A stretch of 64,000 nucleotides of DNA from Candidatus Manganitrophus morganii (GCA_021651055.1 JAJHOH010000001.1:3348001-3412000); one strand, 5' to 3'; numbered from the stretch's first letter, positions 17,026 to 56,879 are shown. The notes: generated by a model not told the origin, from the sequence alone. Numbers and translations: made by a program.

Positions 17026-17248
17026 CCTGAATCTGCCTTTACCGCCACCTACTATCACCCACCATAAGCCACTGAAATAACTCAGTTGAGGTTTTGTCGT
17101 TGACTGCCACCCCAACATGATTTACCATATCCCGTGGTCACCGTATGGTCACCGTTGGGACCTCCTGGGTGATGGCAGAGAAGGTTAGGAGGTCAAGCCC
17201 CAAGCTGGTCACCGTGCTGGTCACCGTTTAATCACCGGGGGGAGACCA

Positions 17249-23229: not shown

Positions 23230-24758
23230 CCAAAATCGACCCGCTCCTCTTTTTGGACGAGCCAGAGCTGCTCTTTGGGATGGGACAATGTGCGACTTAT
23301 CCCAAAGATGGGCTGCTCCTTTTCGGACCGTACTTTAATCCATTAAGAGGCGGCGCATTGCGGATTGGATTGATCGCCACGGATAAGGGCTCTAGCCATT
23401 ATGACAAATGGGTCAAAAAGATTTCGAGAAGAATTTTTCCTGAAAAGGCCGGTGATCCGAAACATACAATCTTTCCAGGCTTCGAGGCAGTCTTCGAAAC
23501 GCGTTGGCCTGCTCAGCCACTTGCAAACATACAAGTTAATGAGACGGACCTTCTCCGCACTATAAAACAGAGCGACCGCCATCAAGCAATCTACCAGGCG
23601 GTCTCACTTTATGCGGATCCGATTGTACGTTATAATCGCGAGCAAAGCGAGACCCCCGTCGATCTATGGATGGTCGTCATTCCGGAAGAGGTCTATCGTC
23701 TTGGCCGGCCGCAATCAAGATTAGCCCCCGAAGAGAAGGTTAAATCGTCGATATCGATGACGACCAGGGAAGCCCATCGGTTTTTTCAGGCGCCTTCCCT
23801 TTTTCAGGAGGTAAATGAAACTGCCGAAGTTTATCGCTTTGAGAAAAACTTCCATAATCAGCTAAAGGCGCGGCTATTAGAACACCGTGCGGCCGTACAG
23901 ATTCTTAGAGAAACGACGATCGCGCCAGAGGAGTTCACCAAGAGCGACGGTCAACCTTTGCGGCAGTTAGAGGACCCCGCACGAGTTGCCTGGAATCTTG
24001 CTACATCGACATTTTACAAAGCAGGTGGGCAGCCATGGAGATTAGGATCACCAAGACCGGGTGTCTGCTACGTTGGCATCGTTTTCAAACGCGATGAGAC
24101 AGGCCTGACCCCGTCGCACGCCTGTGTTGGCGCACAAATGTTCCTTGATTCTGGAGATGGTGTGGTTTTCCGTGGAGCCGCAGGGCCATGGTACTCTCGG
24201 GATACCAAAACTTTCAACTTACCACGTGAAGAAGCGAAAAATCTTCTTGCACTGGTGCTTTCGTCATATCAATCGTCACATGGCGGTAAGGCGCCCAAGG
24301 AAGTTTTCATTCATGGGAAGACCAGCTTTTCACAGGAAGAATGGGAAGGATTTAGCGCTGCTTTACCAAACGATTCAAAAGTCGTGTGCATTCGGATCCG
24401 ACATGATTCGAGACTGAAGCTTTACAGGATGGGAGATACCACTGTCCCGCGAGGCCTGGCCAGGAAACTGGGTGATCGCAATGGCTTCCTATGGTCCAAA
24501 GGTTTTGTTCCCCGTCTGCAGACATATTCCGGCCGAGAAATCCCGAATCCGCTCTCAATTCAAATCATGCGAGGAGAAGCCGACCTTGACGTCGTGCTCC
24601 GAGACATTCTGATGTTAACCAAACTAAATTTTAACGCCTGCATTTACGGCGATGGGGAGCCGGTTACCCTTAGGTTTGCTGACTCGGTAGGTGAGATTCT
24701 TACAGCAGCTCCGATCCGAAAGGACCTGCCTCCTCTTCCTTTTCGGTTTTACATATAG
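23226..24758 (+). CDS. short prokaryotic Argonaute (MID-PIWI), SPARTA partner
   Basis: 510 residues, the length of short pAgos that lack N and PAZ domains. The GTG start overlaps the upstream stop in GTGA with GGAGGAG six bases before, so translation is coupled. The MID region (about 165-270) and PIWI region (about 285-510) are present. The position of the first catalytic Asp reads CYVGIVFKRDE, with Val in place of Asp, and the later site reads FIHGKTSF without the acidic residue. The PIWI domain is therefore catalytically dead, as expected for SPARTA. It should bind a small guide and target and activate the TIR partner. Confidence 0.93.
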   Translation: MTKIDPLLFLDEPELLFGMGQCATYPKDGLLLFGPYFNPLRGGALRIGLIATDKGSSHYDKWVKKISRRIFPEKAGDPKHTIFPGFEAVFETRWPAQPLANIQVNETDLLRTIKQSDRHQAIYQAVSLYADPIVRYNREQSETPVDLWMVVIPEEVYRLGRPQSRLAPEEKVKSSISMTTREAHRFFQAPSLFQEVNETAEVYRFEKNFHNQLKARLLEHRAAVQILRETTIAPEEFTKSDGQPLRQLEDPARVAWNLATSTFYKAGGQPWRLGSPRPGVCYVGIVFKRDETGLTPSHACVGAQMFLDSGDGVVFRGAAGPWYSRDTKTFNLPREEAKNLLALVLSSYQSSHGGKAPKEVFIHGKTSFSQEEWEGFSAALPNDSKVVCIRIRHDSRLKLYRMGDTTVPRGLARKLGDRNGFLWSKGFVPRLQTYSGREIPNPLSIQIMRGEADLDVVLRDILMLTKLNFNACIYGDGEPVTLRFADSVGEILTAAPIRKDLPPLPFRFYI

Positions 24759-29786: not shown

Positions 29787-32717
29787 TTAAACCGAAACGG
29801 TTAGATGGGTCTGGATAACCGTTACTGCCATGATGTCGAAAATCCCACCGGTGTCCGTGTATTTGGTATCGGAGAGTTCCTCGTACCGCCCGAGATTGTT
29901 GTATGACGTTTGTATCTCACCATTCACCTGGCCACGATAAGCGCCTTCAAGATAGGTACGGTCTTCGCGATGCGCATGGACGGTAGTGCGGATAACGGGA
30001 TCGGCGACTTTCTCATCGGTGACCTGCTTAATATAGAGAGCCTCCTCGTCGCTGATGGAAAACTTTTCCCGAATCTCGTCGATCATGTCTTGCACAGAGA
30101 TTCTTTTTAGAGGCGGTCCTACGCCCTTTTTGCCCCCGCCAGGCCTGAGTTTTACTGCACCGCCGGTGTTTCGCACCTCGCCTTGGTACTCAACTGCCGC
30201 CTTGATTACCTCGGTCTGGCGGATCTGCTTCATCAATTCAGATACACTACCCTGCTTGATAAGCTGCGGTCCGATGTACTCCGCGAACGTGACGAACTCC
30301 TTGATTTCATCTGGGTAGCTGAAAAAGCACGTCAGGAAGTGGTAGCTCTTCACGAGCCGGGCGAGTAGGTAGACAAAGACCTTGCGGTCTTCCGGGGATG
30401 TGAGCTTTGCTTGAAATCTTACCCGAAGTCCATTGACAGCGAACTGCACTTGGGCGTCGGTCCCGGTGGCTGCCAGGCTCACGAAGTCGCGAGCATCAGT
30501 TTGCGTGAAGACGCCCACCGCGAGAATATCGGCGTGTAGCCTCATGCAAAGCTCCAGATCTGGTTCGTCGGGCTCGAACGGCGTGCCCTTTCGATACTTG
30601 GCAAACGCCTTCAGAATGGCCGAAGCGTTATTCGTGAAGTCCACTACCACGACATCCCTCTTGCCTTCGTGGCTGCGGTTCAAGCGTGACACAGTCTGCA
30701 CTGCGTTGCGACCAACCACCGGCTTGTCGAGAAACATCCCGGCGAGGAGCGGCTGGTCAAAGCCGGTTTGGAATTTGTTGGCCACAATCATCAGTCGATA
30801 GTCCTCACCTTCGAAGCGATCTTCGATCAGCTCGCCTTCCTTGAGTTCGTTGGCTGCATGCTCGCTGATGGTCTCGTTCGTTTCTGGATGCACGAAGTCC
30901 GAGAAAGCGTAAAGCACCTTGTAGTCCGCGCCGCGCTCCCTGAGTTTCTCCTTGATAATGTGGAAGTAACGCAGGCCCGCCACACGCGAGGTGGCGACGA
31001 TCATCGCCTTGGCACGGCCGCCAATGAGCGGCTTTACATCCTTTCCAAAAATGCGGAGCATCACTTCGGCCTTGTATTGGATCAGCCCGTCATCCTGGAA
31101 GGCGACGTTCTTGAGCGCCTTGGACACTACTCCCTTGGGATAGAGCTTCTCCTCGTCCGGCTTGGGGACGATAGGACAATGGAGATTGTAGAGCGTCTTG
31201 AAGGAGATGATGCTCGCCGCCACATCCACGATGTATCCCTCTGCGATGGCCTCGGACTCGGAGTAGGTGTCGAATGGCGCGCCGAATAGGGTGACCGTGG
31301 CCGGAGCGGGCGTAGCGGTGAACGCGACAAAAAGTTGATTGCGGTCATGCTCGCGGATGATCTTGGCGATCTTCTCTTCCTCGTCCTTGCCATCGTCCGC
31401 TGCATCTTCTGCGTCGGCATCGTCAGACTTCCGGAACGGAACGCGGATGGCTACCCCCATCTGGCCTTCCTGCGAACGGTGGGCTTCGTCAATCAGGAAT
31501 GCCACACGTAGGTTCTTTAACTCGGGGTTCCTTTCGATCTCCTCCAGCACCCAGGCGAACTTCTGTTGGGTTGTGACGATGATCGATCTGTGCTCCTTCA
31601 GGAAACGCGGCAGGTCTTCTGCCTTCCTTGCCAGACCCACCACAGCTTTCAGATGCGTGAACTTCTCGATGTCCTCCCGGATGTTCGTATCGAGGGACTT
31701 GCGATCCGTCAGGATGAAGACGACATCCACCAACTTGTCGCTGGTGCCCGGCCTGAATGAGCTGTGCAACCGGTCAGCCAGCCAGCAGATCGACAATGTC
31801 TTGCCGCTTCCAGCCGAGTGATCAATGAGGTACTTCCGCCCGATCTCGCCCGTTTTCACGAAATGGGCTAGCGCATCGTCCACCACTTTCCGGACCATGC
31901 GGCTCTGGTGGTAGCGGGGCATAATCGTGAACGCAGAACTCGCCGACCTGTCAGCTTCTGCTTCGCGTTTCGGTACCCGGACTAAGAAGAACGACAGCGC
32001 CTCAAGCAATTGCTCCTTCGATAAGACCTCTCGGTACAGGAACTCCACCGGATATTCGCCTTCCGTCTGTGGTGTGTTGGTCAGTCCCGTATTGTGCCAG
32101 CGGAAATTTTCTGCACGACGCGGATCGGTGGCCGCCATTACGTCGCTGGTATCAGCGGCGAGGTAGAGGAATGGATGGAGAAAGCACTTTCTAGCATGGT
32201 CGCGCGCAGTGAACTGCGCGACCGCGTCATGCACGTTCTGGTTCCTCTCGTGCTTGACCTCGATCGCCACTATAGGTAGACCGTTGAGGAAGAAGACGAA
32301 GTCGATCTCTTTATTCGTTTCACCAAAGTAGAAGTGTGGGCGAAAGGTGATACGGTTTTCCCGGTGTTTCTTCGCCGCGGCGCTTTCGTTCGAGCGGGGT
32401 TTCGGATAGTAGAGGCGGAATTCCAGTCCGCGCACCTTAAGGCCATAGCGCAGAATCATCCAGAGGGGTGTTTGTTCCAACTCCTTACGCAGTGCTCGGA
32501 ACACCTCCCCCCGCGCGTCGGTGCCATAGTCGTCCGCAAGCTTCTTGAGCGTGTCGGCTTGGGTGGCTTTAAGAAAGGCCCAAAGCTGATCTTCAGCAAT
32601 GCAGTGCTCGGTGTCCGTTATTTCGGTCTGTTCAAGCACGCCGTAGCCATGCACACGGACAAGAAAGTCTGCGATGTGCTGCTGAAAGGTCAGCTCCGGG
32701 CCTTTCTCCTTAGCCAT
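29787..32717 (-). CDS. hsdR: type I restriction enzyme, R subunit
   Basis: 976 residues. The N-terminal nuclease has Asp139 and Glu153-x-Lys155 (EIDFVFFLNGLPIVAIEVKHE), the PD-(D/E)XK site. The translocase follows with Walker A HSAGSGKT, VVTTQQKF, Walker B LIDEAH, TATP motif VAFTATP and motifs near QTGFDQP and QTVSRLNR. The C-terminal helical region (about 770-970) contacts the MTase core. It is the motor and cleavage subunit, cutting unmodified DNA after ATP-driven translocation. Its ATG overlaps the hsdS end by 8 bp, so the whole operon is translationally linked. All motifs look intact. Confidence 0.96.
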   Translation of the reverse strand: MAKEKGPELTFQQHIADFLVRVHGYGVLEQTEITDTEHCIAEDQLWAFLKATQADTLKKLADDYGTDARGEVFRALRKELEQTPLWMILRYGLKVRGLEFRLYYPKPRSNESAAAKKHRENRITFRPHFYFGETNKEIDFVFFLNGLPIVAIEVKHERNQNVHDAVAQFTARDHARKCFLHPFLYLAADTSDVMAATDPRRAENFRWHNTGLTNTPQTEGEYPVEFLYREVLSKEQLLEALSFFLVRVPKREAEADRSASSAFTIMPRYHQSRMVRKVVDDALAHFVKTGEIGRKYLIDHSAGSGKTLSICWLADRLHSSFRPGTSDKLVDVVFILTDRKSLDTNIREDIEKFTHLKAVVGLARKAEDLPRFLKEHRSIIVTTQQKFAWVLEEIERNPELKNLRVAFLIDEAHRSQEGQMGVAIRVPFRKSDDADAEDAADDGKDEEEKIAKIIREHDRNQLFVAFTATPAPATVTLFGAPFDTYSESEAIAEGYIVDVAASIISFKTLYNLHCPIVPKPDEEKLYPKGVVSKALKNVAFQDDGLIQYKAEVMLRIFGKDVKPLIGGRAKAMIVATSRVAGLRYFHIIKEKLRERGADYKVLYAFSDFVHPETNETISEHAANELKEGELIEDRFEGEDYRLMIVANKFQTGFDQPLLAGMFLDKPVVGRNAVQTVSRLNRSHEGKRDVVVVDFTNNASAILKAFAKYRKGTPFEPDEPDLELCMRLHADILAVGVFTQTDARDFVSLAATGTDAQVQFAVNGLRVRFQAKLTSPEDRKVFVYLLARLVKSYHFLTCFFSYPDEIKEFVTFAEYIGPQLIKQGSVSELMKQIRQTEVIKAAVEYQGEVRNTGGAVKLRPGGGKKGVGPPLKRISVQDMIDEIREKFSISDEEALYIKQVTDEKVADPVIRTTVHAHREDRTYLEGAYRGQVNGEIQTSYNNLGRYEELSDTKYTDTGGIFDIMAVTVIQTHLTVSV

Positions 32718-34017
32718 GCGCTTGCACCCGGTTGAGATCAGCCTCGGTTACTCGCCGCTGCCCGGTAACGCATTCGTGGATCAGCGACTTGCGGTAGGAA
32801 ATGAGAGTTTTAATCTGGGCCTCGATGCCGCTCGTGATCTGAGCGACCTGCGCAAGGCTTTCATCGAGAAACTGGCAGATCGCCCGCTGCTCCTGAATTG
32901 ACGGCAGTGGGATTGGGAACAACCCGACTTTTGTAGAGTTCGTACTTGCTAAGTTTGTTGTCCGTTTGCCTGTCGCCTCAAAGTAGTCTCGTCCGTATTG
33001 GGATGCTGTAAGATAGGCCAAGAATGCAGAAAGCAGCTTGTGTCCAAGACAGCGGACTGCGAAGATGTGATTCTGGTGCAGACAGCCTGAGATTTCCCCG
33101 CTCCAAACCGTTCCCCGACCGAGCTTGTCCAAATCGCCACCTTCAGTCATGAGTACATCACCAGGACGCAACTCAACTCGGCGAGCGACATGGAGCGGCA
33201 CCTCAATCAGCGTCACGTCGTCCAAGCTCAAGTGCCCGTCCTGGACATTGGCAACTCGAAGATAAGGACGTTTGATGGTCGGCCCTTCATATTCCTTTCC
33301 GAGGGTCAACCCAGTCTGAATCTGGGACACCCTCTTCAGACTTACCAACTCCCAGTGAGTTGGCACTTCCTTCATCCAAGTATTTCCAGTTTGACGCAGA
33401 TCGGTGTGTGTCTGAAGGCCTCGAGTTACAACACGCGTTATCGTCGCATTACGCAAGGCGTCTAGTGGTTCAAGCTGGCGGCGTTTGGCAGTCACTGCCG
33501 CATCAATTGCAGCACAACTCGCATCCAGAAACGTCACAATCCGCTCTTGCTCCGGCAACGGCGGGAGCGGGACATTAAACTGAGCTAGCTGCGTCGGCCA
33601 ACTGACGCGGGGCATCTTCGCTCCATATGCGAGCGCGTTGCAGCGCTCAATGAACCATCGTGACGCTAGACAGTAGAAAAGGAAGCGACTGGCAATTCTC
33701 TCCGGCTTGAATGCCAGAATCTCGCCTGTGCACTTCCCGTCGAAGTCCGCTGTGTAGTACTTCTCGAGATATGGTCTGAGCTTGCCAAAGAGAACGTCGC
33801 CCTTTCTAAAAATGGTGACGGCGCTTTCGACTTCCAGCGTACAGCGCCGACCCAATATCCTACCCGTGCCCGATTCAATGTCTTCGAGTTCGAGGTAGTC
33901 CTCTTCCCGGCTCTCCTCAGCGGTCTTTTCGTTTCGCAGCGCAACAACGTCTTTGAGGCGGTCGAAAGTCCAACCATTGGGAAGCTGATCCAGAAAGCTG
34001 TCGTGTTGGCCGATCAC
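32710..34017 (-). CDS. hsdS: type I restriction-modification specificity subunit
   Basis: 435 residues from a GTG that overlaps the hsdM stop (GTGA). Two target-recognition domains are separated by conserved helices: the first repeat ends PLPPLPEQERIVTFLDASCAAID and the second IPLPSIQEQRAICQFLDESLAQV. Each TRD would read half of a bipartite DNA site; the site itself cannot be predicted. It starts NGWTFDRLKDVVALRN, typical of the family. Full length, so both half-sites should be recognised. Confidence 0.95.
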   Translation of the reverse strand: MIGQHDSFLDQLPNGWTFDRLKDVVALRNEKTAEESREEDYLELEDIESGTGRILGRRCTLEVESAVTIFRKGDVLFGKLRPYLEKYYTADFDGKCTGEILAFKPERIASRFLFYCLASRWFIERCNALAYGAKMPRVSWPTQLAQFNVPLPPLPEQERIVTFLDASCAAIDAAVTAKRRQLEPLDALRNATITRVVTRGLQTHTDLRQTGNTWMKEVPTHWELVSLKRVSQIQTGLTLGKEYEGPTIKRPYLRVANVQDGHLSLDDVTLIEVPLHVARRVELRPGDVLMTEGGDLDKLGRGTVWSGEISGCLHQNHIFAVRCLGHKLLSAFLAYLTASQYGRDYFEATGKRTTNLASTNSTKVGLFPIPLPSIQEQRAICQFLDESLAQVAQITSGIEAQIKTLISYRKSLIHECVTGQRRVTEADLNRVQAHG

Positions 34018-35990
34018 CCTGCCAATCCCTCCAGCATTTTCTCCGCCTCCTTCTCCAGCTTCCAGAACTCTGCAAGCAGGTCCTTCGTAGGCCTGGGCGG
34101 CTGGTAGCGGTAGAAGTACTTATTCGGTAGAATCTCGTATCCAAGCTGTGGGCTGTCTTCCCAACGGATGATCGGTTTGGCGATTTCGCGCTTGAGAAAT
34201 GTCTCAATATCCTCCCCGTGAGGGATGTACTCGTCGTCCTTCACGTAGTTGCGGTGCGTCCATTCGACTGAGACGATTTTCGGTCCATCTTTTATCAGCG
34301 TCTTAAACTTCTCGGCCGCGTTGTCCTTCGGGCCGAGGGTGAAGGCCTCCATCTTCTCGGCATTGCCGACTTTTAGCCGCATGTGGAAGGTCAGGTCGCA
34401 GTCGTAGAACTCCTGCTCCTTCTTCAAGTTTGCGGCGGTGAATGCCTTTTCGTAAGGCTCCGTAATTGTCGCCGGCTTGTCGTGCTCGTCGAATTGCCAG
34501 AAGACGACGTTGACCTTGTGGTAGGCAAAGTCCTCACGCCGGAATATCTTTACCCGCTCATCGGCGTAGCCCTTGTTCCAGCCCTCCCGGTATCGTTCTT
34601 CGATCCATGCGCGATGCACGTCTGTGATGCGGTTACGCTTGTTGCCAAAGGACTTGGGTTCCTTTTCATACTGCTGGCGGCCGTCAATCAGCATCACCAG
34701 GCCCTTGTGCAAGGCCGGTTTTTCGTTCCGGAGCAGCCAGATGTAAGTGAAGATGCCCGTGTTGTAGAAGAGCTGGTCGGGAAGCATGACAATGGCGTCG
34801 AGCCAGTCGTTTTCCAGGATCCAGCGGCGGATCTCACTTTCGCCAGACCCGCAGTCGCCATTACTAAGGGGTGAACCGTTGAAGATGATGGCGATTCGGC
34901 TCGTACCCTTCTCCGGTGCTTTCATCTTGGCGAGCATGGTTTGTAGAAAGAGCAGCGCGCCGTCGTTCACCCGCGGCATGCCGGCCTGATAGCGGGTCTT
35001 CTCCAACTTGCGCGCCTCGGTTTCATAACCGTCTTTACCACCCCAGGTCACGCCGAATGGAGGATTCGAGAGCATGAAGTCGAAGCGGAATTTGGACTCG
35101 GGCAACTGATCGCCGGGTTCGTTACTGCCGCGTTCATGGGGAATCAGGGAGTTGCCGAGATACACCTTGGCTTGCTGATCGTTCTTGATCAACAAGTCTG
35201 CCTGGCAAATGGCATAATTCGTGGGTGAAAGCTCCTGGCCGTGAACGGTGACGTATTTCTCGACGTTCGCTTTCTTTTCCGTCGTGGTGGCGCGGTCGAG
35301 CAGGTGTTCCTTAGCTACCGACAGCATACCGCCTGTCCCGCAGGCGGGATCGTAGATGGACATATGCCGATCGGGTATAGGCATATCGAGCAATTCGACC
35401 ATTAACCGAATCACCTCGCGCGGAGTGAAGTGTTCTCCGGCCTCCTCTCCGCTCTGCTCTGAAAATCGCCGCAGCAATTCTTCATAGATATAACCCATCT
35501 CCAGCGGCGACAGCATGTCCGGCCCAAGTTCCAGTTCCTTGTACTGGTTTAAAATCGGTGCGAGGCGATTATTCTTAACCATTAACCCGATAGTGGCCCG
35601 GTAATTGAAGTGTTCGATGATGTCGTCGACGTTCTTCGAGAATCCATTAATATACGCTCGAAAATTCTCTTCGAGCAGCGCGTGGTCTTCCTCATAGACC
35701 TTCCTAAGCGTCCAGCCGGTTTTGTTTGAGAACGGCGCCGTACTGATTTCCAGGCCCTTCACCAGCTTCGTGAGTTCCTTCTCGGTCAGTTTTGGTCGTT
35801 TCGCGAGCACTTCGGCCACCTTGCTCGCGCGCCATTTAACGAGCACGCACTCCAAGCGGCGAATCACGATGATCGGCAGGATGACGTTCTGGTACTCATA
35901 GGCCTTGAACTTGCCACGCAGACGCTCGGCGGATTTCCAGATCTCGTCAGCGAGGTTGTCGAGCTTAGGCTTATTGAGTGAAAGAGACAT
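34014..35990 (-). CDS. hsdM: type I restriction-modification methyltransferase subunit
   Basis: 658 residues, an N6-adenine methyltransferase. The N-terminal helical domain (LADEIWKSAERLRGKFKAYE) is followed by EHFTPREVIRLM and SAM motif I DPACGTG (214-220), then catalytic motif IV NPPF (309-312). It is longer than the E. coli protein and ends in a coiled tail (LLAEFWKLEKEAEKMLEGL). First gene of the operon hsdM-hsdS-hsdR, with 4- and 8-bp overlaps. The 625 bp upstream are free for a promoter. Confidence 0.95.
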   Translation of the reverse strand: MSLSLNKPKLDNLADEIWKSAERLRGKFKAYEYQNVILPIIVIRRLECVLVKWRASKVAEVLAKRPKLTEKELTKLVKGLEISTAPFSNKTGWTLRKVYEEDHALLEENFRAYINGFSKNVDDIIEHFNYRATIGLMVKNNRLAPILNQYKELELGPDMLSPLEMGYIYEELLRRFSEQSGEEAGEHFTPREVIRLMVELLDMPIPDRHMSIYDPACGTGGMLSVAKEHLLDRATTTEKKANVEKYVTVHGQELSPTNYAICQADLLIKNDQQAKVYLGNSLIPHERGSNEPGDQLPESKFRFDFMLSNPPFGVTWGGKDGYETEARKLEKTRYQAGMPRVNDGALLFLQTMLAKMKAPEKGTSRIAIIFNGSPLSNGDCGSGESEIRRWILENDWLDAIVMLPDQLFYNTGIFTYIWLLRNEKPALHKGLVMLIDGRQQYEKEPKSFGNKRNRITDVHRAWIEERYREGWNKGYADERVKIFRREDFAYHKVNVVFWQFDEHDKPATITEPYEKAFTAANLKKEQEFYDCDLTFHMRLKVGNAEKMEAFTLGPKDNAAEKFKTLIKDGPKIVSVEWTHRNYVKDDEYIPHGEDIETFLKREIAKPIIRWEDSPQLGYEILPNKYFYRYQPPRPTKDLLAEFWKLEKEAEKMLEGLAG

Positions 35991-36615
35991 AAATCAGATC
36001 CTTTACAGCGAGCCACAACGGGGCTTGGGCCTGGTCTTGCATTAACAAATTATTGAGTTCTAACTTACAAGCCTTCGATTACTTTTTCTGGATAGAAGGG
36101 CTCTCGCGGCATCTCATCGGAAGTTATCTTATTTGCGGAATTATACTGAAAAGGAAAAAGGATCGCAAGGACGTATCTAACTCATAGGCAACGAAGGAAT
36201 AGCAGGTATACTCAATTTCGACCTGCTTAATTTGCTGGAGGCGATTACTGCGTGCAGCCAAATTTCTGCGCAATTACAGTTATATAAATCCGGAGTAGTC
36301 TCTCCTTGTATCGTGTGAAAATCATACCTTCACTTTTTCAGACATAGTAAGGCCAAACTGTTCTTCCTGTAACAAATGAAAAAGAGCTTGTCCCAACTCC
36401 AGTAGACTTCACTTGTTAATCGTTATCGATTGAAGGTAATGATATGATTTTTTCTGGGTGGTTGTTACGTATAGCGTTTGGAAATCGATTCTGACTGAGG
36501 ACCTTACCTCCAATTACGAGGCAAGTGGACTTCGCAAATGCACGATTAAAACTTGAACTCAGGGGGTCAATGACAAAACATTATTAATTGCAATATACCC
36601 TCTCCCCTGTAAGAG
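35991..36615. other. AT-rich gap upstream of hsdM, no gene
   Basis: About 625 bases with stops in all frames. It should contain the hsdM promoter, which I cannot place with confidence. No hairpin terminator or RNA gene stood out. Confidence 0.5.
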
Positions 36616-38567: not shown

Positions 38568-38972
38568 GTGAATCGATATTATCCAGAAACTAGATATTCC
38601 TCGTTAAGCGACAGTCATCTTCAGGAAGGACGCATAAGAGTCGTGCCGGGTTCATGCACAGTGTGCGGAGAAAGTGAAGGCGTCGACTTCGATGCACACG
38701 GGATGTGCTTCAACTGCCGAATTCGGTCGACCGCCGGGCCGGATCTGACGTGTGCCATCCTCGGGCGGGGCGACCAGGGAAATGAGGCCGTTCGTGGCTG
38801 CGACCGACAGTCTCGCATCGTCGGTTGCTGCCAACACTGCCACACGAGCTATCAAGTCGGCGAGGTTCTACTCGAGGATGGTCGTTGGGCTGAGGTCTGC
38901 TGTACAGTCGAGCGCGCCCTTAGCTCTGCGGATCGCTTAAGCTGGACTCCTTTCAGCAAGCCCGACCACTAG
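38568..38972 (+). CDS. cysteine-rich small protein (hypothetical cassette gene)
   Basis: 134 residues from a GTG. Cys pairs CTVCGES, CFNC and CCQHC could bind one or two zinc ions; a VDFDAHGMCFNC segment is the best-conserved-looking part. No known family. It ends 25 bases before an attC-like site, the position expected of an integron cassette gene. The start is uncertain and there is no clear ribosome site, so it may also be a degraded gene. Confidence 0.4.
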   Translation: MNRYYPETRYSSLSDSHLQEGRIRVVPGSCTVCGESEGVDFDAHGMCFNCRIRSTAGPDLTCAILGRGDQGNEAVRGCDRQSRIVGCCQHCHTSYQVGEVLLEDGRWAEVCCTVERALSSADRLSWTPFSKPDH

Positions 38973-38997: not shown

Positions 38998-39055
38998 GCT
39001 TAACTTCATGATCCGGCGGACGGGCTTCGCCCGCCGCTGATCGCGAGCGGTAGGC
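38998..39055 (+). other. attC-like recombination site 1
   Basis: 58 bp. The left core GCTTAAC fits RYYYAAC and the right core GGTAGGC fits GTTRRRY with one change. Between them GATCCGGCGGACGGGC and GCCCGCCGCTGATC form the long imperfect stem-loop expected of attC, with TTC at the tip. Orientation agrees with the plus-strand cassettes. Cleavage would be within the right core at about 39049. Confidence 0.6.
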
Positions 39056-39097
39056 GGCCCTACTCTCGTTTTGACCACTCGTTGAGGTACGCATAGG

Positions 39098-40663
39098 ATG
39101 ACGGTCTCCCCAGAACTCACGAAGATCTACTTTTCAGATTTCTTCGGCGTTCCGCCCGAAGTACTGGAGGATTACGGCGCGTTCAACGTCTCGTTAATCA
39201 ACGATTTGCCCCTGTTCGTCGATCCGTTCCTCATTTTTAATAGCGATGACCTCACGTACCGCCAACTCCACAAAGAGATTGTCCGTTACGTCGTATTCCT
39301 GCGTAACAAGTCCCTCGCGGGGCGCATCCCGGACGGATTGCTAAAGGCTTGGTTCACGTTTTCCGAGGTGAAGGAGAACTGGCTGGGTTATTCATTGAGC
39401 GGCAACAAGGGAACGGGGTTGGGGATGGACTTTGCCCGCGCCCTGAACGCAAGTCTGGCGACGCGGATCTCCGACTTTGGGTCCGAAGAGATCACCAAGA
39501 GCAGCCACATTGAGAAAGTGTGTCTAGTCAGCAACGGCGTTGGGAAAGACAATATCAGTGACTTCGTTACAAATCTAATTAAAGGCTATTTGCTCGAATA
39601 CACGCAGACGTTCGCTGGTAAGTTCCTGAGCGTGGCCCAGCGCAAGACCCTATCAGTTGAAAAGGCAGTTTTCAACTACGATACAGAGACCTGGGAGACC
39701 CGCCAGTACGACCTTCCCTTTGTGGACAATGAGTTCATTCTCCTCACTCCGACTGATCTACTGACCAAAGATGAAGTTTGGATCAACCGTACTGATATGG
39801 TTGAGCAGTATACCACCATTGCAAGTGCGGTCGACGACGATCAGCTCCGAGCTCAGGTCAACAACTACTTCTGGCGCGTCCTCAACGGCATTCAGGAACG
39901 GGACGAGGAGAAGCGGCGACGGAAGCGAGAGGCTGCAGGCAAGAGGCGCAAGAAGCCGCCCAATAAGGAGCCCAATGAGAAGCAGGTCGCTGAGGCCGCC
40001 GTCTCCACTTATCGCGAATTTCCGACTCTCATTGATTACTTCATCAGGTGGAAAGAGGAGCACGGTGACGAGGCGGAAGCTCAAGCGGATGAGAAAGTGC
40101 GATCTTCCGAACGCCTCTATATCGGCCAAGTGCGCGCTTTCGCTTCGTATCTTCTCGAAAATACACCGTTCTACGGCTCTGCTGGAGCAACCCTGGAAGA
40201 GGCCCGAGCGCGCGTCGAGTTCTTAAAGGACGTCATCGAGAACAAAGGCGGATGGAGGTTGTTCTACTCCGAAGGAGAGCCGATCAGACGGGAATCTGAC
40301 TTGCAGATTCTCTTTCGACTCACATGGTGCAATACCCCGTCAGATGTGAACCGCGAAGTTAACAACGGGCGCGGACCCTCAGACTTCGAAATATCGCGCG
40401 GAAGCTTCGACAAGTCACTGGTTGAGTTTAAGCTCGCAAAGAATACCGCACTCGCGAGAAACCTAGAACACCAAGTTGAAATCTATAAAGCTGCTAGTGA
40501 CGCTCAGCATGCCTTGAAGGTCATCGTGTTCTTCACGCAGCAGGAAAGGGAACGAGCTGTGGCAATAATTCGCGGCCTTGGCTTTGAGAATGATCCGCAC
40601 ATTATTCTTATTGACGCGAGGAGTGACAACAAGCCGAGCGCGTCCAAGGCCGACTTCCACTGA
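39098..40663 (+). CDS. PD-(D/E)XK nuclease-like protein, cassette gene
   Basis: 521 residues. An alpha/beta N-terminus (IYFSDFFGVPPEVLEDYGAF) is followed by a basic, Lys/Arg-rich coil (about 275-305, EEKRRRKREAAGKRRKKPP). The C-terminus carries GPSDFEIS (Asp429) and LVEFKLAK (Glu443, Lys445), the spacing of a PD-(D/E)XK catalytic core. It ends LEHQVEIYKAASDAQHALKV and then a beta strand, as in such folds. It is bounded by attC-like sites at 38998-39055 and 40692-40801, making a one-gene cassette with a 42-bp leader. Function is not established; a defence nuclease is likely from context. Confidence 0.65.
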   Translation: MTVSPELTKIYFSDFFGVPPEVLEDYGAFNVSLINDLPLFVDPFLIFNSDDLTYRQLHKEIVRYVVFLRNKSLAGRIPDGLLKAWFTFSEVKENWLGYSLSGNKGTGLGMDFARALNASLATRISDFGSEEITKSSHIEKVCLVSNGVGKDNISDFVTNLIKGYLLEYTQTFAGKFLSVAQRKTLSVEKAVFNYDTETWETRQYDLPFVDNEFILLTPTDLLTKDEVWINRTDMVEQYTTIASAVDDDQLRAQVNNYFWRVLNGIQERDEEKRRRKREAAGKRRKKPPNKEPNEKQVAEAAVSTYREFPTLIDYFIRWKEEHGDEAEAQADEKVRSSERLYIGQVRAFASYLLENTPFYGSAGATLEEARARVEFLKDVIENKGGWRLFYSEGEPIRRESDLQILFRLTWCNTPSDVNREVNNGRGPSDFEISRGSFDKSLVEFKLAKNTALARNLEHQVEIYKAASDAQHALKVIVFFTQQERERAVAIIRGLGFENDPHIILIDARSDNKPSASKADFH

Positions 40664-40691
40664 CCAGTCCTATCAGACGGTACGGTCGGCC

Positions 40692-40801
40692 GCCTAACGA
40701 GCAGGTCGGTTGATCCGTCGCAGCTGCTCGCAAATGGTTGTATCGCACTTCCGTTGTCGCTGGTACTGGATGGGCTCGCAGCTTACCTTCATGCGTTAGG
40801 C
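40692..40801 (+). other. attC-like recombination site 2
   Basis: 110 bp. GCCTAAC (40692-40698) and GTTAGGC (40795-40801) are perfect complements of each other and fit RYYYAAC and GTTRRRY exactly. The interior is longer than in the other sites and holds a CGAGCAG/CTGCTCG stem. The site begins 28 bp after the preceding gene. Confidence 0.7.
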
Positions 40802-41031
40802 GTCCGAATGAAATCAGGAATCCAATTCGAAGAAATCTGGTTTGACGATTACATCGTCGAACTGAAAATTAAGTCATAAGGGCTTTCAATATTTTTAACT
40901 AAGGTATATGTCGCGCATTCAGATTGACGATCTAATACAATGCTTCGAGTTGGACTCCTTACGTCGGTGCTCCGCGCCGCCTCCGTTCACCGCTCAAGCT
41001 TGTCATTGGGCAATAAGGGTGGACTAGCGAG
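40802..41031. other. cassette leader
   Basis: About 230 bases between attC site 2 and the next gene. A short frame opens at 40809 (MKSGIQFEEIWFDDYIVELKIKS, then stop) and may be a remnant of a small gene. The rest is probably promoter sequence for the cassette. Confidence 0.35.
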
Positions 41032-42048
41032 ATGGATGAGCATGCGTTGATAGAGCGAGTCTACGACCATGTCGAGTCCAGCGCTGTCGACAAGGCGGCT
41101 GTGGCTTGTTTGCGGCTCGCGAGAAAGATCGGAGACTCATTCAACGTTGTAGTTTTCTTGCGAGAACTCTACCCTGATCACCACCAACTGAAAGTAGCGT
41201 TCTTCGAGGAGACCCAGCAACTGAAGAAGGAAGCGCAAGATTTTTTATGGAAAAGTACGCAGCGCAGTTGGCTGGAAGAGAGGAGCCTTGACTACTCGCT
41301 AGCCGAAGACGAAGACAAGAAGGTACTAGCGATGGGTGTTGGCGATTTGATCCGAGAAGTCGAGCAGATGGAGAAGTCGATCGAGGATCTGAGGCTCCCG
41401 CCAGGGATGGGAGAGTTCGACACTGCAGCGTTTACCGATCGGCACTCCCAGCTGAAGAGCCGGATGCGACTGAAGATTCAAGCGTGCCACACGATTCTGG
41501 AGCGCATCAGAACGAGATGCCTAAACTACGCAACCCGAATCGAACAGCAGCTACAGGCAGCTGGCCGAGCTTCGGATTTTATGGCATCAGTACAGAACGA
41601 TGTGCATAACTACTATGCAGAGCGCTCTAGAACAACGTACGAAAAGCTGCGCAAGGCAGCCAGTCTCATAGGCTCGAAAGAACCTGAAGATCATGCACTG
41701 CTACTTACAGCAATTCGGCGCGCGGTAAAGGCGGTCGCTGACTACCACTTTCCGCCGCAGCCGCGTCCGGTCGAGTGCCGGGACGGGGTAACCCGTGAAT
41801 TGGGCGAAGAGCAGTATCTAAATCGTTTGCAGGAGTTCTGCGTCTCGCTGACTCCATCGAGCAGTTCTAGCAAGCTACTTCAGGCAGAGATGGCTTACTT
41901 AAGCACTTTTGTTCGGAGACTTAACGATGTAGCTTCAAAAGGCGTTCACGCGGAAGTCACCAGCCTGGAAGCTAAACAGGGTCTTCTTGGCTTGTATCTG
42001 TTTGTCTCTAATCTAATCGCGAAGATAGAGCAGAAGCAAGAGGCCTGA
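41032..42048 (+). CDS. helical protein with AbiTii-like N-terminus (hypothetical), cassette gene
   Basis: 338 residues, almost all helical. The N-terminus (DKAAVACLRLARKIGDSFNV then VVFLRELYPD) has the pattern of AbiTii abortive-infection domains; this is a weak resemblance. Long heptad-like helices follow. A C-terminal block CRDGVTRELGEEQYLNRLQEF recurs in uncharacterised defence-island proteins. It sits alone between attC sites 2 and 3, starting with an ATG at 41032 and ending 38 bp before the next site. Function unknown. Confidence 0.55.
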   Translation: MDEHALIERVYDHVESSAVDKAAVACLRLARKIGDSFNVVVFLRELYPDHHQLKVAFFEETQQLKKEAQDFLWKSTQRSWLEERSLDYSLAEDEDKKVLAMGVGDLIREVEQMEKSIEDLRLPPGMGEFDTAAFTDRHSQLKSRMRLKIQACHTILERIRTRCLNYATRIEQQLQAAGRASDFMASVQNDVHNYYAERSRTTYEKLRKAASLIGSKEPEDHALLLTAIRRAVKAVADYHFPPQPRPVECRDGVTRELGEEQYLNRLQEFCVSLTPSSSSSKLLQAEMAYLSTFVRRLNDVASKGVHAEVTSLEAKQGLLGLYLFVSNLIAKIEQKQEA

Positions 42049-42085
42049 TCATCTCTTGGCAGTTGACCTCAAGCACAGGGAGTAT

Positions 42086-42146
42086 GCCTAACAACTCTTT
42101 GCAACGGGCGGCCCTGATGGGCTGCCGCTGAACTTGAACGTTCGGC
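42086..42146 (+). other. attC-like recombination site 3
   Basis: 61 bp, the classical length. Left core GCCTAAC and right core GTTCGGC (one mismatch to its complement) enclose CAACGGGCGGCCC and GGGCTGCCGCTGAAC, a near-complementary stem with TGAT in the loop. It begins 38 bp after the stop codon of the preceding gene. Confidence 0.7.
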
Positions 42147-42492
42147 ACCCTTCCTCTCCGTAATCGTCAGTTCTCAGTCGTATTCAATATATTGAATAGT
42201 AGGTGGAGACATCCCGTAGAGAAATTCTTCCTGAAAGTGTGACTTTCTATCACGTCTATCAGGACAGCATTTCCTCTAGGAATAAATAAAATACTTTCTA
42301 ATAGTCTATATTTCAATTCTCGAGCTTCCAGATAAGGCCAGTACCGACAAGATTGCTTTTAATTCTCTTATGTGGTATTTGTCCATAGGGGGAGGAAAAA
42401 GTATTCAATCTAACTCAATTTATGATCTTTGACCTCGAAACTCCGTTATTAAATCAGTTTCGGCCAGAACACGGCAGGCCAGCAGTTTTACG
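42147..42492. other. cassette leader with repeat shared with 46154-46217
   Basis: CTCTCCGTAATCGTCAGTT at 42154-42172 recurs with one change at 46161-46179, again directly after an attC-like site. Similarity continues loosely through GTAGGTG (42201 region). The remaining AT-rich 280 bases hold no gene. Confidence 0.45.
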
Positions 42493-43506
42493 ATGCATAT
42501 ATTTGTAGATGAAGCAGGGCCGTTTATAATCCCACCGGCACGGAAGTATTCCGTTTCATGCGTCGGGGCATTGGTCATCAGGGATCTTGATCTCGACAGG
42601 ATCTTCACCGAATTTGAAAAGATCAAGAAGCTCTGGGGCATTTCAGAAGGAGAAATTAAAGGTAGTAAACTCAACGAAGAGCAGATTGCTACCGTGATCT
42701 ATCTCTTGAGCGGATATGACGTGATTTTCGAGATCACTGCAATTGATATGGCAATGCAGACGCCATCAGGTTTGACAAAACACAGGCTTGGGCAAGCCGA
42801 AAAAATGATTGAGCGCGTTACCGATGGCTTCCATGAGAATGTGAAGCGTGCTTTTCACGATCTACGGGAGCAACTCAAAGGAACGTCAAATCAGCTGTAT
42901 GTGCAGGCAGTTTGTAGTTTTGAGTTACTCTATAAAACCGTGCAACACGCAACTCTGTATTACGCACAGAGGTGCCCAAAAGAGCTCGATGAGTTTTATT
43001 GGAAAATTGACGCCAAGAACAATAACCTAACACCGTATGAAGACATGTGGCAGAAAATTATTTTGCCAATCCTTCAGTCAAAATCCTTCTTAAGGCCATT
43101 TATCCAGTTAATTGAGGCAGATTATAGTTATTTTGAAAAGTACTTTAAGGAATCCCCTGAACCACCTAGACACCTTGCAGAGGCAGTAAGTGATGCGAGA
43201 CCATTCCAGTATGTCCAGATCAATAAAATCTACAAAAAGCATTTAGCCTTCGAACAATCACATAAGAGTTTGGGATTACAAATGGTCGACATCCTTACTA
43301 CCAGTGTTCGGCGCGCTATGAACGGTAATCTTCAACCCCCAGGATGGTCACGGATCGGACAGCTCATGGTCCAGGCTAGTAAAAACTCACAGGTTGTTCA
43401 GATTCTCGATCTATCAGGAAGCAGACCTCCAAAATACAAAGCTAAACCTCCCTATTGGAAAGTTGTCCCACTAATAGAAAAGACATGTAAGCAGATATTG
43501 GTTTAA
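42493..43506 (+). CDS. DUF3800 family protein
   Basis: 337 residues. The N-terminal MHIFVDEAG carries the Asp-Glu pair typical of DUF3800, a predicted RNase H-like metal-dependent fold, and KSLGLQMVDILTTSVRRA near the C-terminus supplies the conserved Asp. The EIKGSKLNEEQI segment is also typical. DUF3800 proteins are common in mobile elements and defence islands; no reaction is established. It leads a four-gene plus-strand run inside one cassette interval. An alternative start is not apparent. Confidence 0.75.
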   Translation: MHIFVDEAGPFIIPPARKYSVSCVGALVIRDLDLDRIFTEFEKIKKLWGISEGEIKGSKLNEEQIATVIYLLSGYDVIFEITAIDMAMQTPSGLTKHRLGQAEKMIERVTDGFHENVKRAFHDLREQLKGTSNQLYVQAVCSFELLYKTVQHATLYYAQRCPKELDEFYWKIDAKNNNLTPYEDMWQKIILPILQSKSFLRPFIQLIEADYSYFEKYFKESPEPPRHLAEAVSDARPFQYVQINKIYKKHLAFEQSHKSLGLQMVDILTTSVRRAMNGNLQPPGWSRIGQLMVQASKNSQVVQILDLSGSRPPKYKAKPPYWKVVPLIEKTCKQILV

Positions 43507-43588
43507 GAAGCTGAAAAAACTATAGTGTAGATTTTTCCTTACTATACATTAGTAAAAGGCACTCTCTATCTATTTCGGAATATGCTCT

Positions 43589-44260
43589 ATGAGTAAAACT
43601 CAATCAAAAACTATACATATTGGAAATATGGGGGAGCATTTAATAGGATCTTTGTTGTCTCAGTTTTGCATCGTCAGAAGTGTTGCACAAGGTAGGGATA
43701 CTGGAATCGACCTGTACTGTGAGATCTTAAAGGAAGAGAGCTTAAAACTGTCGCTTCATTTTTTTTGCCAAGTCAAAACAACCAGGAGAGATATAAATTT
43801 CTCAGCTATTAAAAAATATTTTGATTATTGGCGTAATCAACCAGCACCTGTTTTCTTATTTCATGTGAAATATAAAGACATTAAGAACCTTAGCAAAGCA
43901 CACGAAGTGTGGGTCTACGACATTCCTTATGCACTTGCTATCGACGATGCAGAAAAAATAAATCAACTGGTAACTAGAGATGTCGATGTAAAAATTCAAC
44001 TATGTGGAGAAGACAACAATAAAAATAAAATGACATTAAAAACGTTCTTATATGGCCATGTACCGTGGTCCTATGGTCTTTGGCAAATGAGGCACTATGG
44101 TCTTGTTTATCCTAATCCAGAAATCATAAAACCAGTGGACAATATATTTGTTGGCGGATTCTCGAAAATATATAAGGATAAAATAGAACAATCGATTGAA
44201 TACGCAAATTGGCTACTGGAATTAGAGGGTAAGGAGAATCATACTTTGAAGGAAGGCTAA
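43589..44260 (+). CDS. DUF4365 domain protein (nuclease-like)
   Basis: 223 residues. GNMGEHLIGSLLSQF, RDTGIDLYCEI and FFCQVKTTRRDI are the DUF4365 pattern: Glu, Asp and Gln-x-Lys of a PD-(D/E)XK-type site. The C-terminal third is unassigned. AT-rich codon use matches the neighbouring genes of this cassette. Usually a defence-associated gene; activity inferred. Confidence 0.7.
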   Translation: MSKTQSKTIHIGNMGEHLIGSLLSQFCIVRSVAQGRDTGIDLYCEILKEESLKLSLHFFCQVKTTRRDINFSAIKKYFDYWRNQPAPVFLFHVKYKDIKNLSKAHEVWVYDIPYALAIDDAEKINQLVTRDVDVKIQLCGEDNNKNKMTLKTFLYGHVPWSYGLWQMRHYGLVYPNPEIIKPVDNIFVGGFSKIYKDKIEQSIEYANWLLELEGKENHTLKEG

Positions 44261-44328
44261 CAAAATGGTGGAGCTGCCCAGATACTGCCAAGAACGTTAT
44301 CAGTTCTAGATGATCCTGATGATTTGGA

Positions 44329-44883
44329 ATGAAAATGATTTTTACCTTAACATATGACGGAGAGTTGAAGGCTAATGGGGAGGCGAAGCATAAGCAAAAA
44401 ATTCGCCGACTATTTCACGGTCAATTACGTGAATTATGGAAGGCGACACCCTACGAGCAGTTAAAATCTCCCCCAGAAAGCGTAACTCAGACAAGAGGAA
44501 AATTTCGGTTCTTTCCGCTCGTGACAGCTGCTCGTAATGAAATAGCAGAACTGAAAATAACGATGTTACGTCCGGGCCAAGGCCCAGGCTACATCATTGG
44601 CCAAGGAGGTGATATAGACAATCGACTTAAAACCTTGTTTGATTCACTAAAAATTCCTGATAGCAATCAGATTCCTCCCGAAGACCAGCCGGTAGATGAT
44701 GAAAATCCATTCTTCTGTTTGCTTGAAGACGACATACTCATCACGGATTTATTAATAAGTACTGATCGTCTGTTAGAACCCTGTAAATCGAATTCTCACG
44801 TTAAATTAATTGTTCGCGTTGAAATTAAGAACATGCCAAGGATAGGTGCGGCCATGATTTCTACCCTCGGGTGGTCACGGTGA
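44329..44883 (+). CDS. RusA-like protein (candidate Holliday-junction resolvase fold)
   Basis: 184 residues. GGDIDNRLKTLFDSLKIP followed 27 residues later by LLEDDILITDLLIS reproduces the RusA pattern of Asp-x-Asp-Asn and a second acidic Asp-Asp strand. These would bind the catalytic metal. The N-terminus is divergent, so annotation as resolvase is tentative. It lies between DUF4365 and a restriction-nuclease-like gene, perhaps as a four-gene module. Confidence 0.55.
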   Translation: MKMIFTLTYDGELKANGEAKHKQKIRRLFHGQLRELWKATPYEQLKSPPESVTQTRGKFRFFPLVTAARNEIAELKITMLRPGQGPGYIIGQGGDIDNRLKTLFDSLKIPDSNQIPPEDQPVDDENPFFCLLEDDILITDLLISTDRLLEPCKSNSHVKLIVRVEIKNMPRIGAAMISTLGWSR

Positions 44884-45187
44884 GCTTTCAGGTGATACAT
44901 GTTTCCCTTGTTAATCCTAGATTGATTTAACTTCACAAGTTCTTTCTTTGTAGGTGAACATTCCGGCAAGACATCCTTCCTGTAATCAACGGTTGAAGGA
45001 AATCGATAGATGGGGTAAAGTACAAATACAAATCAGCAATGTTACTCTGAATATCTTGGATGCGATGACGCAGGGCATTGGCGGACGCAAACTGTATTCA
45101 CAATGGAAGAAAAAGAAGGTCGGGTGTTGCATCCTGGTCTTCCCAGGTTATCAAGATTCAAGACGCGACCCCAAGAACGCTAGAACT

Positions 45188-46096
45188 ATGCCGAAAAGAA
45201 AAAATGACTTTCAGGAGCTTATAAAATCTGTTTACGATCAGATTGTTCCTGATGGTGGAAAAGTGACAGAGTCAGAAATGGTTTATGATAAGGATGCTGA
45301 CGCACTTAGAGAGGTGGATATCGTTGTCGAATATAGATATGCACATCACGATTTTAAAATTGCTATTGAATGTCGTGATCGTTCAAGAAAGGATAGTGTG
45401 GAATGGATAGACAGTCTAATTGGAAAAGCTAAATCATTGTCTGTAAATAAAGTGGTGGCAGTCTCTAAAGAGGGATTTACAGACACTGCAATAAAAAAAG
45501 CAAAAGCAAATGACATTGACACATTAACACTTGAAGAAGCCATAGACACTGATTGGTCTAATTTCCCATTTAAACCAGGAATCGCAATCATTACTGGTGA
45601 GAACTTTAGGCTTCATGACGTATTGTATAAAAAAGATGAGAAATATCACTCCTTGAAAGAACTTGATTTACGATCTTCTGTAGTGATAAATGGTAACGAT
45701 TGTGGATCAATCAAAGAAAAATTCGAATATTTTTTTCTTAATCATTTGCTTCCTTTTATACAGACCAAGAAAAGAAAGGAATTAATGGAGCTTTTTAAAA
45801 CACGGGCCGATCTCGACAAAGAAATATATATAGAAAGCAATCATACATTTCCAGGCATCTGCGCCCGTCTACCCACCGGAGAAGAAATCGATATTTCTGT
45901 ATTGAAGTTTATTGTTTTCGGTACACGTAGCACTGAAGAAGTTGATCAAAAGCATTATAAACTTAAGGAACTAATGGTGTCGACGGGAGAGCATTTGGAT
46001 AGTGATGGTTCAACAATTAAATTCAATATTGTTCAAGATCCAGAATCAAAAAAGATTCACGGTAGATGGCAAAAAGTACCACCAGATGATGCCTAA
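45188..46096 (+). CDS. restriction-endonuclease-like protein
   Basis: 302 residues from the ATG at 45188; the frame is open back to a GTG at 44954, but that 78-residue extension is not family-like. The N-terminus KNDFQELIKSVYDQIV, LREVDIVVEYR and IAIECRDRSRKDSVEWID gives Asp and Glu-x-Arg at the positions of a PD-(D/E)XK site, with Arg replacing Lys. AKSLSVNKVVAVSKEGFTD continues the fold, as in Mrr-like enzymes. The C-terminal half is unassigned. The stop codon TAA lies inside the left core of the next attC-like site, as often in integron cassettes. Confidence 0.6.
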   Translation: MPKRKNDFQELIKSVYDQIVPDGGKVTESEMVYDKDADALREVDIVVEYRYAHHDFKIAIECRDRSRKDSVEWIDSLIGKAKSLSVNKVVAVSKEGFTDTAIKKAKANDIDTLTLEEAIDTDWSNFPFKPGIAIITGENFRLHDVLYKKDEKYHSLKELDLRSSVVINGNDCGSIKEKFEYFFLNHLLPFIQTKKRKELMELFKTRADLDKEIYIESNHTFPGICARLPTGEEIDISVLKFIVFGTRSTEEVDQKHYKLKELMVSTGEHLDSDGSTIKFNIVQDPESKKIHGRWQKVPPDDA

Positions 46097-46153
46097 CACG
46101 GCGGCTCAACCAGGATGCTCCTGTCGTCGCACCTGTTAGCCGCAACGTTAGCC
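46091..46153 (+). other. attC-like recombination site 4
   Basis: 63 bp. Left core GCCTAAC includes the stop of the preceding gene; the right core is GTTAGCC (one mismatch). GCGGCTCAACCAGG and CCTGTTAGCCGC pair with two single-base bulges, like the extrahelical bases that orient attC folding. It marks the right end of a 4-kb, four-gene cassette interval. Confidence 0.7.
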
Positions 46154-46505
46154 TCCCTTTCTCTCCTTAATCGTCAGTTTTTTCAGTCTTTTGCAACGTA
46201 TTAATTTGTAGGTGAACCAAATGGCGATCTGATCCGCCATTTTTATTGCGTGGAAGCCGACTTTCGCGTAATAGGTCTCTTAGGATCTTTTGTAAGAAAA
46301 TCTGAATAAGGTGCGTTAAAACCTGTTTTGGGAGCAGTCTGGTTTTATCAAATTAAAACCTTGTCATATCAGTCGCTCAAAATCCTTGCGCCCCGGCTTG
46401 ATCTCTTGCCATAACTGGTATATCGTAGCGCAACTATTGCAGGTTGTTTCCCAGTCACCTTCAAGAAAAATGAAACGATCCCATAAAGAATCCAAAGCCC
46501 CGTAA
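46154..46505. other. end of cassette region, second copy of leader repeat and 15-bp repeat
   Basis: The post-attC leader repeat (46161-46179 core) and CTGGTATATCGTAGC (46415-46429) lie here. No gene is visible in the 350 bases. The right border of the mobile DNA may be in this interval. Confidence 0.45.
46415..46429. repeat. candidate att repeat, right copy
   Basis: This 15-bp sequence is identical to and in the same orientation as 18910-18924, next to the XerC/D-type recombinase. Together they would bound a 27.5-kb segment containing all the defence genes. Confidence 0.35.
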
Positions 46506-46862
46506 GCGCTTTATGGCAGAATCCGGCAGATTTTGGAGTCGGCCCGCGCTGGCGCTGCCCGATCGGTCAATACCGCCCAGGTGATGTCGAACTGGCTCAT
46601 CGGACGGCAGATTGTCGAAGAAGAACAGCGGGGGAAAAAGCGGGCCGGTTATGGAAAGCCTCTCTTGAAAGGGCTTTCTGAAAAGCTTCAAGCCGATTTC
46701 GGAAAAGGGTATTCGGTCGATAATCTGGAGCTCTTCCGGTGTTTTTATAGGATATCCCGACCTGATTTCCGAGGCGGTGCGCCGGAAATTAAAAGAGGCA
46801 TCCACCTCCATCGAATCAATCACACTTTTGTCGCAGGTGAATGGGGTGAACCCATTTGTTGA
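46506..46862 (+). pseudogene. truncated yhcG / DUF1016 nuclease N-terminus
   Basis: The frame is open from 46506 without a start codon and reads ALYGRIRQILESARAG, then WLIGRQIVEEEQ, AGYGKPLLKGLSEKLQADFG and GYSVDNLELFRCFYRIS. This is the DUF1016 N-terminal domain of YhcG-type proteins. After about 85 residues the similarity stops and the nuclease domain is missing. A deletion fragment at the island edge. Confidence 0.7.
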
Positions 46863-56082: not shown

Positions 56083-56748
56083 ATGTTGCAGCGGGTGTTT
56101 CCATCAGAATTACCACTCGAACGCTTTTCCTGGGGACGCAAGGTTGCCACCTTGTTCTGTTCCTGGCTTGTCCTCGCCTCATGTGCCTCCAGTTTACACC
56201 TGCGGGGGCTGGAAGCAACCGCTCGGGAAGAGCATGGTGAGGCGGTTCGGTTTTATCTGGAACATCTGAAAAACCGTCCGGACGATCTCCGCGCCAGAAA
56301 CGATCTGGGCGTCTCCTATTTGCGGAGCGGAGAGTATGATCTCGCCTTTCTCGAATTTCAGAAGGTCCTCGCCGCCGATCCGCGATATGTCCGGGCTTAT
56401 TACAACATCGGATTGGTCTACAACTTCAAAAATCTTCCCGACGAGGAATTCAACGCCTATCTGCAGGCCTTGGAGATCGATCCGGGACATCTCCCCACCC
56501 GGTTAAACCTCGCCCATCTTTATATCGAACGGGGAGAGATCGCAAAGGCCAAAGAGATTTATGAAGAGGTGCTTCGTAATCATCCAAACCAGCCACGCGC
56601 CCTCTATAACCTCGCCCTGCTCTACGATCAGGATGGGAAAGGAAAGGATGCCTTCGCACTGCTTGAGCGGTTTTTACAGCAGGAACCCGATCCGGAATGG
56701 CGGCAAGAGGCTGAGGAACATTTAAAGCGGTTGAGAAAAGCGCACTAA
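56083..56748 (+). CDS. TPR-repeat lipoprotein
   Basis: 221 residues. The lipobox LASC has Cys34 as lipidation site after a hydrophobic stretch (ATLFCSWLVLA). About four TPR units follow (for example ARNDLGVSYLRSGEYDLAFLEF, AYYNIGLVYNFKN, TRLNLAHLYIERGEIAKAKEI, ALYNLALLYDQDGKGKDAFALL). It probably serves as a scaffold on the inner face of the outer membrane, or in secretion of a polysaccharide. It starts 11 bp after the coiled-coil gene with GGCGGAG upstream. Confidence 0.85.
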   Translation: MLQRVFPSELPLERFSWGRKVATLFCSWLVLASCASSLHLRGLEATAREEHGEAVRFYLEHLKNRPDDLRARNDLGVSYLRSGEYDLAFLEFQKVLAADPRYVRAYYNIGLVYNFKNLPDEEFNAYLQALEIDPGHLPTRLNLAHLYIERGEIAKAKEIYEEVLRNHPNQPRALYNLALLYDQDGKGKDAFALLERFLQQEPDPEWRQEAEEHLKRLRKAH

Positions 56749-56819
56749 GGAATTGAAGCTCCCAGCCGCAAGCAGCGTGGAATCTTCGACCCGAAAGGAG
56801 AAAACATCTATTTGTATTC

Positions 56820-56879
56820 GCGCGTCTAACCCGCGCCCCAAGGGGCGAGGAATGCGACGCGCGTGCGTGTTCATTTTTT
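56820..56879 (+). terminator. terminator after the TPR gene
   Basis: Nested stems GCGCGTC/GACGCGC and CGCCCC-AA-GGGGCG are followed ten bases later by six T residues. It separates the operon from the convergent UPF0016 gene and touches its stop codon. Confidence 0.5.

Follow-up and report, generated by a model that had tools for sequence, protein, structure and literature searches.

The array at positions 38998-46153 of the window, by which we mean the whole 64-kb stretch of DNA analysed here (G000:C1:3348001-3412000, part of a complete 4.29-Mb genome), is very probably a CALIN, in which integron cassettes were inserted in one orientation beside a genomic site and now stand without an integrase. 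As defined in IntegronFinder (PMC9024848), such an element has at least two attC sites in a row on one strand, with cassette genes between them and no integrase near, and the array shares these features: its attC sites are clustered in the same orientation, the genes between them are oriented alike, and no integrase adjoins them. It is a partly decayed CALIN with defence-like content, genuine though of an ordinary kind, and it departs from the typical form in having three firm attC sites, one of them decayed, a last interval of four genes in 4 kb, and two attC sites that lie flush with a dispersed 65-bp repeat. The first-pass annotation had proposed a CALIN with defence-like genes, and this reading is borne out by three attC sites recognized by covariance model, by the lack of IntI, by the absence of the array from congeners and by a homology edge at the fourth site.

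Four attC-like sites, all on the plus strand, occur between 38998 and 46153, each located 3' of a plus-strand gene, as had been claimed. Simple core-plus-stem scans proved too noisy alone, and covariance models were used instead. The first of these, R1, was built from 10 attC sites, all from outside the genus, comprising 7 sites of plasmid class-1 integrons and 3 from genomes in the same phylum that carry IntI; the plasmid integrons were added to the training set because the stretches beside the relatives' IntI genes were poor in attC. The second, R2, was built from 19 attC sites, including sites of the same genus and none from the window, and was run unfiltered on both strands of the entire 64-kb window, with the E-values of both models to be taken as rough. 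The top three R2 matches in the window were site 3 (42086-42146; 41.8 bits, E 8.3e-8), which is the best supported of the four, site 1 (38998-39055; 27.1 bits, E 2.6e-4) and site 4 (46091-46153; 19.8 bits, E 0.014), followed by chance-level matches, with site 2 (40692-40801; 11.3 bits, E 1.5) ranking sixth. R1, run unfiltered on a 12-kb stretch, gave E 1.2e-6 for site 3, 17 bits (E 0.005) for site 1 and E 1 for site 4. The Gemmatirosa kalamazoonensis integron, not used in training R1, served as positive control: R1 retrieved its long attC array and gave unrelated stretches no more than about 14 bits. Rfam models searched over the window gave nothing at gathering scores. Covariance modelling, named beforehand as the check on the four sites, scored sites 1, 3 and 4 as attC with R2 and spoke neither way on site 2.

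The sites are less canonical in sequence than had been described. While their place and orientation stand, strict RYYYAAC/GTTRRRY cores are found in only one of the four (site 2), since R' deviates in site 1 (GGTAGGC, decayed), site 3 (GTTCGGC) and site 4 (GTTAGCC). The imperfect internal stems were likewise confirmed in part: an L''/L' inner stem with an unpaired extrahelical base is present in sites 1, 3 and 4 by model and folding (inner stem scores of 8 in site 1 and 9.5 in site 4), and is absent from site 2, where the stem is almost nil. Site 2 thus combines fully complementary cores (GCCTAAC/GTTAGGC, 7/7) with the weakest inner stem of the set (score 4, versus 7.5-10 in plasmid class-1 sites); its E-value would be about 0.004 if scaled to the 369 nt between the neighbouring genes, with the outer cores alone carrying the score, and its identity as an attC is unproven. 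Sites 1, 2 and 3 begin 25, 28 and 37 nt behind the respective stop codons, and at site 4 the stop codon of the preceding Mrr-like gene (TAA, 46094-46096) sits within the R'' core, as had been noted for one of the sites.

Terminator-like stems are common behind genes, and the failure of strict cores at three sites would fit chance hairpins or terminators in an island that grew by other routes. We regard this explanation as highly improbable, given that all significant model matches in the 64-kb window fall on one strand within a span of 7.1 kb, that the stop codon lies inside R'' of site 4, and that homology to a related genome breaks off at the very crossover base of that site.

This last point came from comparison with the five congeners, in which none of the cassette genes was found at the DNA level. 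In one of them, G399, colinearity with the window (87-90% identity) begins at 46147 and extends to about 54.6 kb; to the left of 46147 the two sequences differ, and homology resumes only at 36245-36376. The homology edge coincides with the base at which R' of site 4 begins (G^TTAGCC in the window, G^TTATCC in G399), the expected cutting point of an integron integrase, and an edge at the crossover base is the outcome predicted by site-specific insertion. As G399 has no attC at the boundary, it does not represent a clean empty site; a candidate attC on G399:C2 at the same boundary, where a short inverted repeat is visible, was rejected for want of model support. Rather than a gene order fixed at one locus, we thus find cassette genes that are missing in congeners and a G399 flank that stops at the site 4 crossover.

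The absence of an integrase, which the first-pass annotation had read from the window, extends to the whole genome, where the IntI family model TIGR02249 found nothing over its cut-off. The two best matches in this genome resemble ordinary XerD-/XerC-type proteins, and the third, weaker match is a recombinase at 19.7 kb of the window. Nothing exceeded the cut-off in the five congeners either, three of which are incomplete or fragmented, making the absence less firm there. With no IntI over cut-off in the genome and the congeners, the array is a CALIN by definition, and a complete integron, with intI and attI beside the array, is not what we observe. By the same family cut-off, IntI was detected in 7 of 18 genomes from other families of the order.

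Other attC sites without IntI occur in the window's own genome, where 1714128-1715078 holds three and 3067608-3068598 a further two, and additional clusters were found in the genus on G183:C20, G398:C481, G396:C3 and G399:C1, so that the genus holds several attC clusters lacking IntI. The two clusters in the window's own genome consist of textbook attC sites. Two congeners have, close to attC clusters, DNA that matches about 125 bp of the window (56748-56873) at 83-86% identity (L140, 5108-5231; L142, 12564-12690).

The array carries several nuclease-like genes and one of abortive-infection type, all on the plus strand, and the proposed gene calls held up on the whole. The first, a 134-aa ORF with CxxC pairs and no family match (38568-38972, its stop 25 nt before site 1), is probably the cassette gene belonging to that site. 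It is followed by a 521-aa PD-(D/E)XK-like protein (39098-40663), which matches the PADLOC profile PDC-M36A (E 7e-23) as well as a PHROG of unknown function, and whose D..ExK motif is shared without variation by four relatives. The PDC-M36A profile covers residues 12-276 of this protein, such that the C-terminal nuclease-like half lies beyond the match, and PDC families are candidates rather than proven systems. A 338-aa AbiTii-like protein (41032-42048) matches AbiTii in both Pfam (E 7e-5) and PADLOC (E 1e-6), the former just below the gathering score (23.6 vs 27.6 bits). Between sites 3 and 4 lie a DUF3800 protein (42493-43506; E 8e-9), a DUF4365 nuclease-like protein (43589-44260; E 3e-8), a RusA-like protein of 184 aa (44329-44883) and an Mrr-like restriction endonuclease (45188-46096; Mrr_cat E 2.6e-5), with the DUF3800, DUF4365 and Mrr_cat assignments all above the Pfam cut-offs. 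The RusA-like call was made by motif and fold: its GDIDNRLK and EDD motifs are invariant, and the best fold match of its AlphaFold model (pLDDT 85) is E. coli RusA (probability 0.95, though E is 0.017), in keeping with a RusA fold with conserved acidic residues.

The interval between sites 3 and 4 holds its four genes in 4.0 kb, the longest gap between sites (3945 nt), and the first-pass annotation had treated these genes as one set. Such a unit, a multi-gene nuclease defence system carried from DUF3800 to Mrr-like gene as a single 4-kb cassette, would account for the shared strand of the four genes, the lack of a recognisable attC between them and the nuclease-like domains in at least three of the four. 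We nevertheless consider it improbable. None of 16 loci with a RusA-like gene carries a detectable relative of the DUF3800 or DUF4365 gene, and in one of them (L158) the RusA-like gene has its own attC-like site; a dispersed repeat, repeat B, parts the RusA-like from the Mrr-like gene; the G+C content of the four genes is patchy (43, 35, 43 and 36%, in gene order); and, according to a review (PMC12409362), integron cassettes lack defence systems with more than two genes, a multi-gene interval like this one having no counterpart there. On the basis of the RusA-like loci, the patchy G+C, repeat B and the review, we favour a composite origin of the stretch, through several acquisitions, over a single four-gene cassette, and the earlier grouping probably does not stand.

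Repeat B (44947-45178, plus strand) has copies in the window's own genome and in two others, G396 and G183 (L143, L144, L145, L072). It is a mosaic that ends in ATCAAGATTCAAGACGCGACCCCAAGA, and its modules (GTAGGTG..., CTTCCTGAA...) recombine with pieces resembling a second dispersed repeat, repeat A.

Repeat A, the 65-bp element, is present twice in the array on the plus strand, where copy 1 (42141-42208) begins right at the site 3 crossover point and copy 2 (46148-46217) at that of site 4 (71 bits, E 2.7e-19, and 67 bits, E 4e-18, respectively, in the sequence model R3). In the genus, represented by six genomes, this model yielded twelve copies at E < 1e-7 (loci bearing the repeat include L130, L131, L132, L133, L136 and L197); outside the genus it found no copy as good and none with confidence. 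A copy at G399:C1:3341677 is likewise flush with an attC (54 bits), and a copy in G398 (L197) follows an apparent decayed attC; the other copies tested had no attC by model. Three flush contacts between repeat A and attC sites are difficult to attribute to chance, and the repeat may serve as a favoured landing site, like attI or the attG sites described in PMC12444791, or a shared head of cassettes. A more specific proposal, which we put forward as speculative and rather unlikely, is that foreign or vanished integron integrases preferred the start of repeat A as an attI/attG-like landing site, and that a genus without integrases thereby gathers cassettes beside its copies. The position of repeat A directly at three attC crossover points offers a handle on how cassettes settle without an integrase.

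The placement of the two copies also raises the possibility that the array arose from two independent insertions rather than as one. The nuclease and AbiTii-like cassettes, together with sites 1-3, would then have ended on copy 1 (42141), the Mrr-like cassette with site 4 on copy 2 (46148), and DUF3800, DUF4365 and perhaps the RusA-like gene would be resident or have been added between them. Repeat A starting at both crossover points would fit such a history, as would the longest inter-site gap and the drop in G+C at 42141, from 51-53% in the first two cassettes to 40% in the stretch between sites 3 and 4. The common strand and close spacing of the sites are, on the other hand, what is expected of one array, and the G399 homology edge shows the right end only. 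We therefore hold two insertions to be a tentative alternative, less probable than not, to a single array.

Homologues of two of the cassette genes, the RusA-like and the AbiTii-like, are found next to attC-like sites elsewhere. Relatives of the RusA-like gene were found on two plasmids and in 14 genomes, the latter by an alignment-based scan, a single-sequence scan having returned none. In a Verrucomicrobiia MAG (L158), the RusA-like gene is followed after 6 nt by an attC-like hairpin that contains GCCTAAC (16.2 bits). On a Nitrosococcus halophilus plasmid (L153) an attC-like site (11.9 bits) precedes the start of the gene by 12 nt, and a second such site (13.5 bits) comes after the fourth gene; on the Nitrosococcus plasmid, a gene annotated as restriction endonuclease lies two genes upstream of the RusA-like gene. 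The stop codon of an AbiTii-like relative in G136 (L222) falls inside an attC-like site (22.3 bits, E 0.0019). The scores of these sites are modest (12-22 bits), and their weight lies in their positions flush with genes. No convincing attC was found beside PD-(D/E)XK relatives in the phylum; an attC-like site on a Janthinobacterium plasmid, 1.6 kb from such a relative, was not counted.

For the array, read as a CALIN, we envisage that the cassettes were placed in one orientation by an integrase that was either supplied in trans or has since been lost, and that presumably folded the bottom strand of each attC and joined it at G^TTRRRY. Expression of the cassette genes would need promoters inside the cassettes or upstream, and the cassettes may have been kept because genes of nuclease and abortive-infection type are useful against phages or plasmids. 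A role in anti-phage or anti-plasmid defence, raised in the first-pass annotation with the suggestion of new defence units, is plausible from the domain content of the genes and their neighbourhood. Defence cassettes of sedentary and mobile integrons, as in Vibrio (PMC12409362, PMC12444791), similarly carry small nuclease or abortive-infection genes between attC sites, but the present array has no integrase and few cassettes, and its defence role is putative.

Records of integron elements in Nitrospirota, to which this genome probably belongs, are few: IntegronFinder 2.0 listed two CALIN there, both in one Nitrospira genome (PMC9024848). Yet of 396 genomes sampled from the phylum of the window, 91 have an IntI that exceeds the family cut-off. 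The array is a further instance of cassettes situated in a chromosomal defence island, and it supplies candidate genes. The island, to which the array contributes integron-type cassettes, includes a SPARTA-like pair of a TIR-type partner and a short class I Argonaute (21802-24758; PADLOC E 2e-130 and 6e-198) and, on the minus strand, the methyltransferase and specificity genes of type I restriction-modification (32710-35990), and it lies beside a tRNA-Ala and an integrase gene. An ORF of 976 aa (29787-32717) is located behind the type I restriction-modification genes. The tRNA-Ala adjoins the integrase-like gene (17249-18460) within the region 16981-18460, and the two possibly mark the left end of an integrated island. 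Just to the right of the array, at 46533-46862, lies a truncated DUF1016 N-terminal remnant of the PDC-S02 type.
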